From NCBI RefSeq assembly GCF_034531395.1, contig NZ_JARVCO010000010.1, positions 1 to 64,000 on the forward strand: DNA of 64,000 bases, written 5' to 3'. This DNA is from Pontiella agarivorans. GTDB taxonomy: Bacteria; Verrucomicrobiota; Kiritimatiellia; Kiritimatiellales; Pontiellaceae. The stretch's first letter is position 1; every line of letters starts with the position of its first letter. The notes beneath the pieces are model-generated. The model made no database searches. It saw only the letters and a program-made list of their open reading frames with translations, and was not told the origin of the DNA. Below, piece by piece: positions 4,514 to 16,214 of the stretch. The translations under genes and the position numbers were made by a program.

Positions 4514-4589
4514 TGGAGCCAATGATCGGAGTCGAACCGATGACCTATTCATTACGAGTGAATTGCTCTACCAACTGAGCTACATTGGC
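4514..4589 (-). tRNA. tRNA-Thr (anticodon CGU)
   Basis: A 76-base cloverleaf on the minus strand: acceptor GCCAATG paired with CATTGGC, D-arm GCTC-AGTTGGTA-GAGC, anticodon stem ATTCA/TGAAT with loop CTCGTAA (anticodon CGT), and T-arm with TTCGACT. Discriminator T and an encoded CCA end are present. It lies upstream of nusA on the same strand, recalling the tRNA gene metY that precedes nusA-infB in E. coli. Confidence 0.96.
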
Positions 4590-4748: not shown

Positions 4749-5144
4749 TTATGTGCCCGAAATTGCGGCCTGCCACTCCTCGCTGTCGGGGCCGACCACA
4801 CATTCGTTGTTGACCCGCATGGCAAGGCGTTTTTTACATTTCGACACAACATCGGAAAACTCACCGGCCGGGATGGAGCCCACGGATTCAACCAGCGCCT
4901 GCCAGTGCGGTTCATTCTGTTCCGCCAACTGATAGTAAACCCATTTGCCGGATTTTTTCTGGGCCAGCAGGCCGGCTTTGTAGAGCATTTTCAGATTCCG
5001 GGAGGCATTGTACTGCGTATCGCCGGTCACATCCATGGCTTCGGCCACGGTGATGCATTGGTCCACGTGGATCAGCAACCAGAACAGGCGCAGCCGATGA
5101 GGCTCTGCAAGGGCTTTGAGGGCATCGATATATTCTTCATTCAT
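4749..5144 (-). CDS. ArsR/SmtB-family transcriptional regulator
   Basis: A 131-residue winged-helix repressor of the ArsR family, with the typical start ALAEPHRLRLFWLL, recognition helix region around NASRNLKMLYKAGLL and wing GKWVYYQL. Family members bind promoter DNA and release it on binding metal or metalloid ions. A Cys at about residue 30 (HVDQCITVAEAM) and later Cys residues could be ligands, but no classic ELCVCDL motif is present, so the inducer is unknown. It is last in a three-gene minus-strand operon after a permease, overlaps the preceding small gene by 8 bases and has an AAGGA site. It probably controls the palindrome upstream of the permease. Confidence 0.88.
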   Translation of the reverse strand: MNEEYIDALKALAEPHRLRLFWLLIHVDQCITVAEAMDVTGDTQYNASRNLKMLYKAGLLAQKKSGKWVYYQLAEQNEPHWQALVESVGSIPAGEFSDVVSKCKKRLAMRVNNECVVGPDSEEWQAAISGT

Positions 5145-5466
5145 GACGGTCCTTCTGATTCACTAAACCGGCAATCATGATAGCAATTCCGAGCAAACAT
5201 ACCACTCCGGAATGCATCGCATGAAAGGCCAGTGCCGCCCCCCGCTCTCCGGAAAACAACGCCATCCAGAAAATCGGGCAGCACAACCCCAGCAGGGCCA
5301 TATTCCGACCGGCTTTAACCTGCCCGGACATACTGCCTCCTTTAATAAGGGTGGTAATCACCAGATACAGATAGCGGTATGCACACCATTTGCTCATACA
5401 GGAGATGAGTCGCCTGCCGGACATTCCCTCTTTCTCCTTCGATTGCATATCGGTCGTTTTTTCCAT
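5137..5466 (-). CDS. Small membrane protein between permease and ArsR
   Basis: Unrecognised protein. Two starts are plausible: ATG at 5466 (109 residues, AAGGAG site 9 bases upstream) or ATG at 5331 (64 residues, stronger AAAGGAGG site). The shorter form contains two hydrophobic segments (around MALLGLCCPIFWMALF and SGVVCLLGIAIMIAGLV), so it is a probable two-helix inner-membrane protein. The N-terminal extension of the longer form is basic with scattered Cys. It lies within the permease-ArsR operon and overlaps arsR by 8 bases. A role linked to the permease is inferred from position only. Confidence 0.6.
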   Translation of the reverse strand: MEKTTDMQSKEKEGMSGRRLISCMSKWCAYRYLYLVITTLIKGGSMSGQVKAGRNMALLGLCCPIFWMALFSGERGAALAFHAMHSGVVCLLGIAIMIAGLVNQKDRHE

Positions 5467-5491
5467 TTCGGGAATCTCCTTTAAGGCGCTG

Positions 5492-5525
5492 TTCTCCGCC
5501 GCCGTAATACGCCGGCGGCGGAGAA
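5492..5525. repeat. Strong GC hairpin inside the permease operon
   Basis: Twelve-base perfect arms (TTCTCCGCCGCC and its complement) around a 10-base loop lie between the permease and the next gene. No T-run follows on either strand, so it is more likely an mRNA-stabilising or REP-like hairpin than a terminator. Confidence 0.6.
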
Positions 5526-5543
5526 GACCACGCGGTTACCGGG

Positions 5544-6518
5544 TTAAAGGACGTATTGAACCAGAACACCGCCGCAGACTGCGGTGATCAGGACAATGGT
5601 GATAAATGCGATTACCGCTTTGGGTTTGAGCACGGAGGAGACCAGCGCAATTTCCGGCAGACTGGCACCGGTCCCTCCGATGATCAGGGCAATGGCCGGA
5701 CCGAGGCCCATGCCTTTGGCGATCAGCACCTTGAGCAACGGAACCGCCATTTCAATGCGCAGATACACCGGAACACCGATCACGGCGGAGATGATAATTG
5801 AAAGCAGACTGTCGCCGCCGACATATTTTTCAACAATTTCAGCCGAGAGATAGGCCGCCGACACCCCGCTGATCAAAGCCCCGATCAATACATACGGAAT
5901 AATTTTTTTGAACAGCACCCACGCGAAACGAATGGCCAGCACCGGCTTTTTCGTCTCACCGGAACCTGCAGCAGTACCCGGACAGCAGGTTGGCTGCGGT
6001 TCGGGCTTCGGTTCAGGCTCTGCGCCGCAGCAGGAGACGGGAGCACACCCGGAGTCCGCCTTTTTATCGCCCAGCTCTTCGCCCCGCCTGATCTCATTTT
6101 TCCAAGGGGTTTTCGTAATAAACCAGCCGCCGATAATCGCCGAAATGAAGGTAATCGCAAAATAACTGGCGGTGACCTTGAACCCGAAAACAGCATACAC
6201 CATGGCCAGAACCACAAAGTTGCAAAGCGGAGCCGAAATCAGAAAACTCAGCACCGTACCCAGGTTTACCCCCATCGTGGCCATGCCCATGGTCAACGGA
6301 ACAACGGATGCGCTGCAGAACGGGGTGAGCATCCCCAGAAAGGCTCCCAGCAACGGACCGAACCGCTCATGTTTCGTCAGTTTTTTCTGCAGTTTGTCCT
6401 GCGGAATATATTCCCGCATAAAACCCGTCAGCACCGATACCACGGCGATAACAATAACGAGCGCTCCGCCCACATGAACAAATTCTTCCAATGCAACAGT
6501 CAGTTTTTCAGCATTCAT
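5544..6518 (-). CDS. Permease of the ArsP/YraQ (DUF318) type
   Basis: A 324-residue inner-membrane protein with about eight hydrophobic helices. The first half holds the TPFCSAS motif near residue 67 and SAPLCN, typical of the ArsP/YraQ permease family, some members of which export organoarsenicals. The cytosolic loop around residues 155-190 is unusual: it is rich in Cys, Pro and Glu (SGCAPVSCCG, then PTCCPG) and could bind soft metal ions. First gene of an operon with a small membrane protein and an ArsR regulator. The exact substrate is not shown by the sequence; a metalloid or metal is inferred from the regulator. Confidence 0.85.
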   Translation of the reverse strand: MNAEKLTVALEEFVHVGGALVIVIAVVSVLTGFMREYIPQDKLQKKLTKHERFGPLLGAFLGMLTPFCSASVVPLTMGMATMGVNLGTVLSFLISAPLCNFVVLAMVYAVFGFKVTASYFAITFISAIIGGWFITKTPWKNEIRRGEELGDKKADSGCAPVSCCGAEPEPKPEPQPTCCPGTAAGSGETKKPVLAIRFAWVLFKKIIPYVLIGALISGVSAAYLSAEIVEKYVGGDSLLSIIISAVIGVPVYLRIEMAVPLLKVLIAKGMGLGPAIALIIGGTGASLPEIALVSSVLKPKAVIAFITIVLITAVCGGVLVQYVL

Positions 6519-6566
6519 AATCCTGCCTGGTTAAGGGTTAATTTAAAAACGTCCGCGCATAATTAC

Positions 6567-6590
6567 ATACTTGCACATGTCTGCAAGTAT
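6567..6590. promoter_or_regulatory. Palindromic operator upstream of the permease operon
   Basis: Nine-base perfect arms ATACTTGCA/TGCAAGTAT around six bases lie about 50-70 bases upstream of the permease ATG, in an AT-rich stretch with TTGACA-like and TATGTAAT-like boxes on the minus strand. This is the expected form and place of an ArsR-family operator. Confidence 0.7.
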
Positions 6591-6727
6591 AATGTCAAAA
6601 ATTCGGGGCGAGGCGGTTTTTCGGAAATTTCGGGCCTTCGATCGGGTTTTCTGCAACAGCGGATTCTGTCCGCTCCGCCGACGCCCATATGCCGCACAGC
6701 CTATCGCAGATGAACCGGAAACAGATC

Positions 6728-15524: not shown

Positions 15525-15552
15525 TTGCGAAATATGTCATATATGACATATT
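15525..15552 (+). promoter_or_regulatory. Promoter with perfect palindromic operator of the toxin-antitoxin pair
   Basis: TTGCGA at 15525-15530 is followed by a perfect 22-base palindrome at 15531-15552 (arms AATATGTCATA and its complement), whose right end supplies a CATATT -10 box with 16-base spacing. The start would fall at or beside the toxin ATG at 15560. This is the usual arrangement for autorepression by an HTH antitoxin. Confidence 0.75.
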
Positions 15553-15559
15553 TATAACC

Positions 15560-15892
15560 ATGAACAAGCACCCCAAACCGCTTGTATGGCTGAAGGGCGA
15601 AATTAAAACGCCACCCCTCAGCAAGGAAGCCCGGATTGAAGCCGGCTGCCTGCTGAGAGATTTGCAGGAAGGAATTCGTCTCTCCCTGCCCCATTCACGC
15701 CCAATGCCCGCAATCGGGAAAAGGTGCCATGAGTTGAGAATCACAGATGAAAATTCGATTTGGAGAATTGTCTACCGCATAGATTCTGATGCGATCGTCA
15801 TTGCTGATGTATTTCAAAAGAAAACACAACAAACACCCAAGCGAGTGGTCGACGAAAGCAAACGCAGGCTCAAACAATACGATCTGATCTAG
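15560..15892 (+). CDS. HigB-like (phage Gp49-type) toxin
   Basis: A 110-residue RelE/ParE-superfamily protein of the phage-derived Gp49/HigB group, an mRNA interferase fold. Typical features are WLKGEIKTPPLSKEARIEAG, LPHSRPMPAIGKRCHELRI and WRIVYRIDSDAIVIADVF, with a basic C-terminal helix. No Shine-Dalgarno sequence precedes the ATG, and the predicted transcription start is next to it, so translation may be leaderless. The HTH antitoxin gene follows 16 bases later. Confidence 0.9.
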   Translation: MNKHPKPLVWLKGEIKTPPLSKEARIEAGCLLRDLQEGIRLSLPHSRPMPAIGKRCHELRITDENSIWRIVYRIDSDAIVIADVFQKKTQQTPKRVVDESKRRLKQYDLI

Positions 15893-15908: not shown

Positions 15909-16214
15909 ATGAATGCCGAACAAAGAAAAAAACTTGAAGCTGCTGGATTTGCCATAGGAGATACTCAGGAATTTCTGAATCTGAGCGATGAGGAGATGGC
16001 CTATATCGAAATTAAGCGCGCCCTCAGCCAGCACCTTCGTGAAAAACGGAAGTCGAAAAAACTTACCCAGAGCCAGGCCGCTAAACTGATGCACACCAGT
16101 CAGAGCCGTTTCGCGAAGATGGAACACGCCGAAAAAACCGTATCCATCGATCTGCTTGTGCGTGCCAATCTTGCACTCGGAGCAACCCCCGGCGAACTCA
16201 AACACGCCCTCTGA
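15909..16214 (+). CDS. HigA-like XRE antitoxin
   Basis: A 101-residue protein with a C-terminal XRE helix-turn-helix ([21 protein letters not shown]) and an N-terminal helical part. This is the usual HigA-type layout, neutralising the toxin and repressing the operon through the palindrome upstream. Strong ACAGGAGA ribosome-binding site, better than that of the toxin, which would favour antitoxin excess. Confidence 0.92.

Follow-up and report, generated by a model that had tools for sequence, protein, structure and literature searches.

Organization of the locus

The question raised by this locus is what the genes of a cysteine-rich permease, a small membrane protein and an ArsR-family regulator do together near the start of contig NZ_JARVCO010000010.1 of Pontiella agarivorans. 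The stretch of DNA that was analysed, called the window throughout, has a length of 64,000 nucleotides (nt) and represents bases 1-64000 of this contig (C10) of a genome of 4.44 Mb. According to the analysis, the genes are likely to form a self-regulated module in which ArsR controls the efflux of a thiophilic (soft) metal or organometal(loid). On the minus strand, a promoter-like region at about 6557-6592 is followed by the genes of the permease, the small membrane protein and the regulator, and the last two overlap by 8 nt. A first-pass annotation, made from the sequence alone, had delimited the operon as 5137-6590; this interval covers the permease gene, the small gene and an upstream palindrome, and it has to be extended to include the regulator gene. 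The features are:

6557-6592, minus strand: candidate promoter/operator region, with the palindrome at 6567-6590 inside
5544-6518, minus strand: ArsP_1-family permease, 324 amino acids (aa), PF03773 match; codons of C68 at 6315-6317, of A70 at 6309-6311 and of C99 at 6222-6224
5925-6074, minus strand: codons of the Cys-rich central loop (permease residues 149-198)
5494-5523, minus strand: GC-rich perfect hairpin between the permease gene and the small gene, without a T-run after it (from the inverted-repeat list and the sequence)
5137-5466, minus strand: small membrane protein, 109 aa (long form), with an internal ATG at 5331
4749-5144, minus strand: ArsR/SmtB-family regulator, 131 aa; codons of Cys103 at 4836-4838 and of Cys115 at 4800-4802

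The cassette contains members of known superfamilies, and it is named by none of the library models used.

Conservation and co-occurrence of the cassette

The permease belongs to a clade of 30 distinct proteins, which were encoded at 26 loci fetched from genome_contigs, in the window, in a 92% identical relative (L005) and at two plasmid loci, L084 (Vibrio diabolicus) and L085 (Pseudorhodobacter turbinis). The genome_contigs loci span Verrucomicrobiota/Kiritimatiellota (including Pontiellaceae), Gammaproteobacteria, the alphaproteobacterium Cohaesibacter, and Desulfuromusa. The cassette is thus common to marine bacteria that are only remotely related, and the named homologues fit a host among the marine Kiritimatiellota. 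An ArsR homologue was present at all 30 loci (26/26 from genome_contigs, both plasmids, the window and L005). At each of the 26 genome_contigs loci the permease and ArsR genes were adjacent or divergent neighbours, 17 being collinear and nine divergent, with ArsR-small opposite to the permease. The small protein was found at 24 of the 30 loci, i.e., in full length at 21 of the 26 genome_contigs loci and also in the window, L005 and L085; at L081 a fragment of 53 aa was detected. The Pseudorhodobacter record was the only one with the small protein on a plasmid.

The three components also occurred together in a sample of 387 genomes of the phylum. The small-protein profile matched nine genomes, a close permease (73-92% identity to that of the window) was present in nine, and a 48-position profile of the ArsR tail matched ten, one of which (G026) was marginal (22 bits, stop inside). 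The same nine genomes carry the close permease, the small protein and the ArsR tail; because they come from four genera, they do not represent nine independent events. The pairwise distances of permeases and ArsR proteins were correlated (r = 0.81, 27 loci; none of 2000 permutations reached this value), and the correlation between permease and small protein was r = 0.59 (22 loci).

A search for relatives revealed a close permease in four of 28 genomes of the window's genus, including the window's own. In the permease tree the window and L005 did not pair with the congeneric L006 and L007, which is a hint of transfer. No relative was found in viral_contigs, and a viral origin was therefore rejected.

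Permease family and relocation of a thiol

The permease matched PF03773 (ArsP_1) over residues 21-322 with 169.8 bits, at a gathering cut-off of 32.3. It stayed below the cut-offs of NF033936 (SO_0444 Cu/Zn efflux; 118.2 versus 300 bits), NF040736 (SaoE; 98.1 versus 325 bits) and NF037962 (arsenic_eff; 34.1 versus 100 bits). Four clade relatives that were tested singly reached 104-133 bits with the SO_0444 model, and all 27 aligned clade members matched the SO_0444 and SaoE models at E <=0.001 (best E 7e-41). When the permease profile was searched against PDB sequences, there was no match at E <=10.

An alignment of 107 family members was built from the 30 clade permeases and 77 others; only exact duplicates had been removed, so some of the others are near-copies. 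Residue 68 was Cys in all 107 sequences. Residue 70 was Cys in all 77 sequences outside the clade, which yields a C-x-C motif at residues 68-70, and Ala in all 30 clade members (CSA). Conversely, residue 99 was Cys in 30 of 30 clade members versus 0 of 77 others. As judged from this alignment, the thiol shift is a trait unique to the clade among the family members compared. One intramembrane thiol may thus have been relocated, which could alter the substrate. We infer that the C-x-C membrane motif defines ArsP, from a comparison set that included no characterised ArsP; the clade lacks this motif, with A70 in 30/30 members.

Of the 107 sequences, 83 were used for a tree, from which 11 near-identical rows of the L001 type and all rows of more than 415 aa except L093 were left out. 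In this tree the 30 clade permeases formed one side of a branch with a Shimodaira-Hasegawa-like approximate likelihood ratio test (SH-aLRT) value of 97, obtained with a quick method, and with a stem of 1.64 changes per column; because of the long branches, the deep placement is unsure.

The genome of P. agarivorans encodes two further ArsP_1 proteins above the Pfam cut-off, i.e., L003, which is an SO_0444 member above the cut-off of that model (323.9 bits), and L001. The latter is part of a separate ars-like cluster (L143, 1587-7041, contig C7 of the same genome), which comprises an ArsR, the L001 ArsP-type permease without loop Cys, and thioredoxin-like, ArsG-like, radical SAM and ArsM-like proteins. 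This ArsR contains a CVC motif and scored above its cut-off, and the NCBIfam matches of the thioredoxin-like, ArsG-like, radical SAM and ArsM-like proteins were below cut-off. In another ArsP_1 group (L009, L039-L041, L044-L047) the loop is short and contains CC, and the motif TPFCACST is present; five of these loci (L039, L040, L044, L045, L047) carry a second ArsP_1-like permease of about 430 aa.

The central loop is enriched in cysteines

As noticed in the first-pass annotation, the permease open reading frame (ORF) contains SGCAPVSCCG and PTCCPG, with AEPEPKPEPQ between them. The loop (residues 149-198) has five Cys in 50 residues versus three in the other 274 residues of the permease (Fisher p = 0.003). 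The loops of all 30 clade members contain 2-9 Cys in 32-80 residues, and the share of Cys in the clade is 141/1772 (8.0%) in the loops versus 70/8331 (0.84%) in the rest. The number of Cys is kept and the sequence is not; place and count vary apart from C158 and C164 (window numbering), which are nearly invariant across the clade. The Pro/Glu-rich spacers occur chiefly in members from the Planctomycetes-Verrucomicrobia-Chlamydiae (PVC) group. An alignment of the loop across homologues had been proposed as a check, and a lack of conserved loop Cys in close relatives was to refute the first-pass interpretation; with at least two loop Cys in each of the 30 members, the interpretation withstood this check. 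The idea that such a loop is absent from ordinary family proteins had to be given up: many members of the SO_0444 group, which in these counts includes some members below the NF033936 cut-off, carry loop Cys (0-14), and several other ArsP_1 members have 2-5. In the L001-type permeases of the same genus, none of the 24 aligned loop residues is Cys. According to a review, SO_0444 also exists as a selenoprotein that has a UxC motif (PMC13188914; here and below the cited papers are represented by excerpts).

An AlphaFold2 (AF2) model of the permease, based on 27 sequences, had a mean predicted local distance difference test (pLDDT) value of 78.8 and a predicted template modelling (pTM) score of 0.74. 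The pLDDT was below 50 for residues 152-173 and 175-186, and therefore the central loop is probably disordered. It probably lies on the cytosolic side of the membrane, because its flanks are rich in Lys/Arg (positive-inside rule).

The regulator and its putative operator

The regulator met NF033788 (ArsR/SmtB) with 58.6 bits at a cut-off of 55. The annotation was right that the classic arsenic motif is missing: ELCVCDL, which carries the Cys32/34/37 site of type 1 ArsR (R773), is not present. Across the clade, position 30 is Cys or another residue. The only invariant Cys pair, in all 29 aligned regulators, is C103 and C115 in the C-terminal tail, within the motif RCxxRLxMRxxxxCVVGxxSxEW (spacing C-x11-C). 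Type 2 ArsR (AfArsR) has three C-terminal Cys, and with two invariant Cys the cassette regulators do not belong to this type. Two Cys are also present in SpArsR, which responds to methylarsenite (MAs(III)) and not to As(III) (PMC11868830, PMC13236881); the SpArsR Cys are adjacent (101-102; PMC13236881), whereas those of the cassette are 12 residues apart.

Upstream of the permease gene lies the perfect 9-6-9 palindrome ATACTTGCA-CATGTC-TGCAAGTAT at 6567-6590, which had been called a clear operator. Taken by itself, the repeat is no more than suggestive: compared with 20 Markov-1 sequences, the window contains two perfect inverted repeats of 9 bp with a spacer of 6 nt versus 0.25 expected, and 23 (nested ones counted) with spacers of 0-12 versus 4.65 expected. 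Conservation gave a firmer basis to the claim. A matrix was built from 24 of 29 sites at other loci, after five had been dropped; the 92%-identical L005 was part of it, and the window was not. It scored 29.9 bits at the window site versus 8.0 bits at the next non-overlapping site in the 64 kb. Upstream of the 30 clade permeases the consensus ATACTTGCACATTTGTGCATGTGTGCATATATT was found, with a -35-like TTGCAC and a -10-like TATATT; the -10 element is less clear in the window itself than in the consensus. The consensus reads as the inverted repeat ACTTGCACA-N2-TGTGCATGT and resembles the 12-2-12 operators of SmtB/ArsR. A promoter pattern drawn by eye matched with a mean of 19.6/24 versus 12.8 after shuffling (maximum 18 in 1500 mononucleotide shuffles), and 21 of the 30 upstream regions were above the best shuffle; this score is circular because the pattern was drawn from the sequences scored, and the held-out matrix is the fairer measure. 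A generic sigma-70 scan of the window did not list the promoter at 6557-6592.

The window site is the sole zero-mismatch occurrence of TACTTGCRNANNNRTGCA in the genome. One-mismatch sites were found at three places, not more than with the reversed-pattern control (four), and a regulon beyond the cassette was rejected.

The small membrane protein

Two possible starts had been pointed out for the small gene, and both ATG 5466 and ATG 5331 are indeed preceded by a Shine-Dalgarno-like AAAGGAG. Eleven residues (C28, Y30, G53, R54, C63, P64, W67, G73, H82, H85, S86) do not vary among the 22 homologues that were aligned. C28 and Y30 lie upstream of the internal Met, which is kept in only six of the 22 homologues, and thus the long form is favoured. 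The protein was rightly regarded as unassigned: that of the window had no Pfam or NCBIfam match at E <=1, Pfam searches over 22 members gave scattered weak matches (at most three members per family, best E 0.0011), and a PDB sequence search produced a single match with E 1.6. Its description as a two-helix protein simplifies the AF2 model, which is helical and has five helices (17-24, 28-42, 46-61, 64-72, 76-107; mean pLDDT 75.2, pTM 0.53).

The hairpin between the permease gene and the small gene is strong, and it may tune differential expression inside the operon.

Proposed mechanism and alternative explanations

In the proposed module, ArsR would bind the palindrome overlapping the promoter and thereby block transcription. 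A soft ligand would bind to the thiols of C103 and C115 and release ArsR, so that the permease, the small protein and ArsR itself would be produced together. The permease would export the substrate via C68 and C99 as intramembrane thiols, and the probably cytosolic, disordered Cys-rich loop could capture the substrate and deliver it to the pore. The role of an accessory metal-binding or assembly subunit may fall to the small protein, in which C28, C63-P64 and H82/H85 are invariant. A more specific version is put forward only tentatively: a two-component ArsP-type exporter, in which the small protein would be a dedicated membrane metallochaperone or subunit (C-P and H-x2-H ligands), the permease thiol would have moved from residue 70 to 99, and the whole would represent a distinct efflux class with its own type of ArsR sensor (C-x11-C tail).

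Several results weigh against the efflux module. The small protein was not found at five of the 30 loci (L073, L078, L079, L080, L084) and is therefore not essential to the module, and its distances correlated only weakly with those of ArsR (r = 0.21, 22 loci, 48 of 2000 permutations as high). In the plasmid member L084 the loop is short and contains only two Cys, and nine of the 30 upstream regions did not exceed the best shuffle of the promoter pattern (18/24). The ArsR core aligned with CadC, SmtB and ArsR chains of solved structures, in stretches that do not extend beyond residue 89 of the profile (131 positions); C103 and C115 thus lie outside the aligned part. Foldseek returned nothing at E <=0.001, neither for the small protein model nor for the permease model against the PDB. 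With VIA-align the rows for the permease model were mostly carriers of the IT superfamily (Pho90, Z 14.8, root mean square deviation (rmsd) 4.0, 271 aligned; NaDC1, Z 14.5; ArsB 10tp, Z 12.2, rmsd 5.3, 264 aligned), at a baseline of about Z 14 as the best value of helical models without a clear relative. An IT-superfamily fold (ArsB, DASS, CNT) is a lead only, and ArsP has been placed in the TOG superfamily instead (PMC7176098). In the literature on SO_0444, ArsP, PF03773/DUF318, Sao and ArsR/methylarsenite, no description of the cassette was recognised and no experiment on a clade member was found among the matches listed.

Within the efflux reading, two substrates are about equally probable, and each is a possible rather than a probable choice. 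One is MAs(III) or another trivalent organoarsenical; the cassette would then be a unit of the arsRP type in which the regulator has two thiols and the ArsP is modified. The permease belongs to the family that was named after ArsP, and two Cys suffice in the MAs(III)-selective SpArsR (PMC11868830, PMC13236881), although their adjacent position differs from the cassette. An ArsM-like protein (about 177-204 bits) was present in six of the nine cassette genomes versus 61 of 378 others at >=170 bits (Fisher p = 0.001), and within the sampled genomes of the window's genus in four of four versus one of six (p = 0.048). However, this link is weak and post hoc, and relatedness and genome size confound it. 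The ArsM cut-off was passed by 40 of the 387 genomes but by none of the nine with the cassette, and in the P. agarivorans genome the ArsM-like gene sits with the other permease in the separate ars-like cluster. The other candidate is an ion of a soft transition metal (Cu(I), Zn, Cd or Hg), by analogy with SO_0444, which is the best NCBIfam relative of the permease and whose group has many members with Cys- or His-rich central loops. Cells stressed by Zn or Cu require SO_0444 to grow (PMC3219624), and an SO_0444-family gene of Nitratiruptor is induced by Cd and Cu (PMC10092412). This choice is weakened by a score far under the cut-off, by the tree, which sets the clade apart from SO_0444 within the stated limits, by the loss of the C-x-C motif, and by the true SO_0444 member L003 that the genome already has.

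It is improbable that the regulator senses a reactive sulfur or redox signal via C103/C115 and that the permease exports a sulfur compound instead of a metal. A disulfide or a persulfide might be formed by the invariant Cys pair, and the regulator has a weak match to NF040642 BigR (26 versus 155 bits). In BigR/SqrR-type sensors, however, the Cys pair spans two core helices, whereas both Cys of the cassette ArsR are in the C-terminal tail, and a disordered loop with multiple Cys would fit metal capture better. Similarly, there is little to commend the view that the loop Cys are mere drift in a low-complexity linker. The free variation of loop length (32-80 residues) and sequence and the occurrence of other ArsP_1 groups with 0 loop Cys would agree with drift; the roughly tenfold difference in Cys share between the loops and the rest, the minimum of two loop Cys in every member and the near invariance of C158 and C164 argue against it.

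Neighbouring genes and further observations

A neighbour scan covered 10 of the 192 counted flanking ORFs. The sole recurrent neighbour, a class-I glutamine amidotransferase (PF00117), came immediately after the clade permease on the downstream side at four divergent loci of one alpha- and three gammaproteobacteria (L067, 5053-5772; L071, 3560-4276; L072, 5182-5889; L077, 5087-5788). It points to no substrate, and an assignment from neighbouring genes was rejected.

In the window, a tRNA-Thr gene (cgt) follows downstream of the cassette on the same strand (4514-4589). Positions 1-470 are highly repetitive; translation of ORF 9-470 on the plus strand gives Phe/Ala/Leu repeats, and the minus strand would presumably encode a Lys/Ala-rich, histone H1-like repeat protein. 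Furthermore, a perfect palindrome, AAATATGTCATATATGACATATTT, is present at 15530-15553, just upstream of the plus-strand ORFs 15560-15892 and 15909-16214, which we take to encode a small HigB/RelE-like and a helix-turn-helix HigA-like protein; the arrangement resembles that of a toxin-antitoxin pair which has an operator of its own.

Significance and comparison with known systems

Taken together, a single odd permease has become a widely shared, testable cassette with a diagnostic signature, i.e., a CSA...PLCN permease, a C-x11-C ArsR tail and a small WCAY-type protein. The proposed module would give a function to proteins that are annotated (in L084) merely as permease and ArsR/SmtB regulator, and biosensors could gain a new metal(loid) sensor from it.

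The cassette permease shares with SO_0444 (NF033936) the ArsP_1 family, a similar length and two halves with a central loop that is often rich in Cys or His. It differs by its low score with that model, its separate clade, and CSA plus C99 instead of C-x-C. A metal-type regulator also adjoins the gene in Shewanella (PMC3219624); this regulator is ZntR-like, in contrast to the ArsR and the small membrane protein of the cassette. With arsRP units the cassette has the Pfam family in common as well as, in its ArsR, a two-thiol candidate site as in SpArsR; the Cys-rich central loop, the loss of C-x-C, the added small protein and the C-x11-C instead of adjacent spacing of the regulator Cys set it apart. 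SaoE of the Sec-assisted organometallic system (NF040736) is likewise an ArsP_1-type efflux permease. The SAO operon has six selenoprotein genes (PMC13188914), whereas the cassette, whose permease is far below the SaoE cut-off, consists of three genes only (the genome was not searched for other Sao genes). Finally, the cassette ArsR resembles the metalloregulators AfArsR, SpArsR, CadC and SmtB in its winged-helix core and in a palindromic site overlapping a promoter-like sequence, and it is distinguished from them by a tail that holds its only invariant Cys pair and by a sequence without ELCVCDL.

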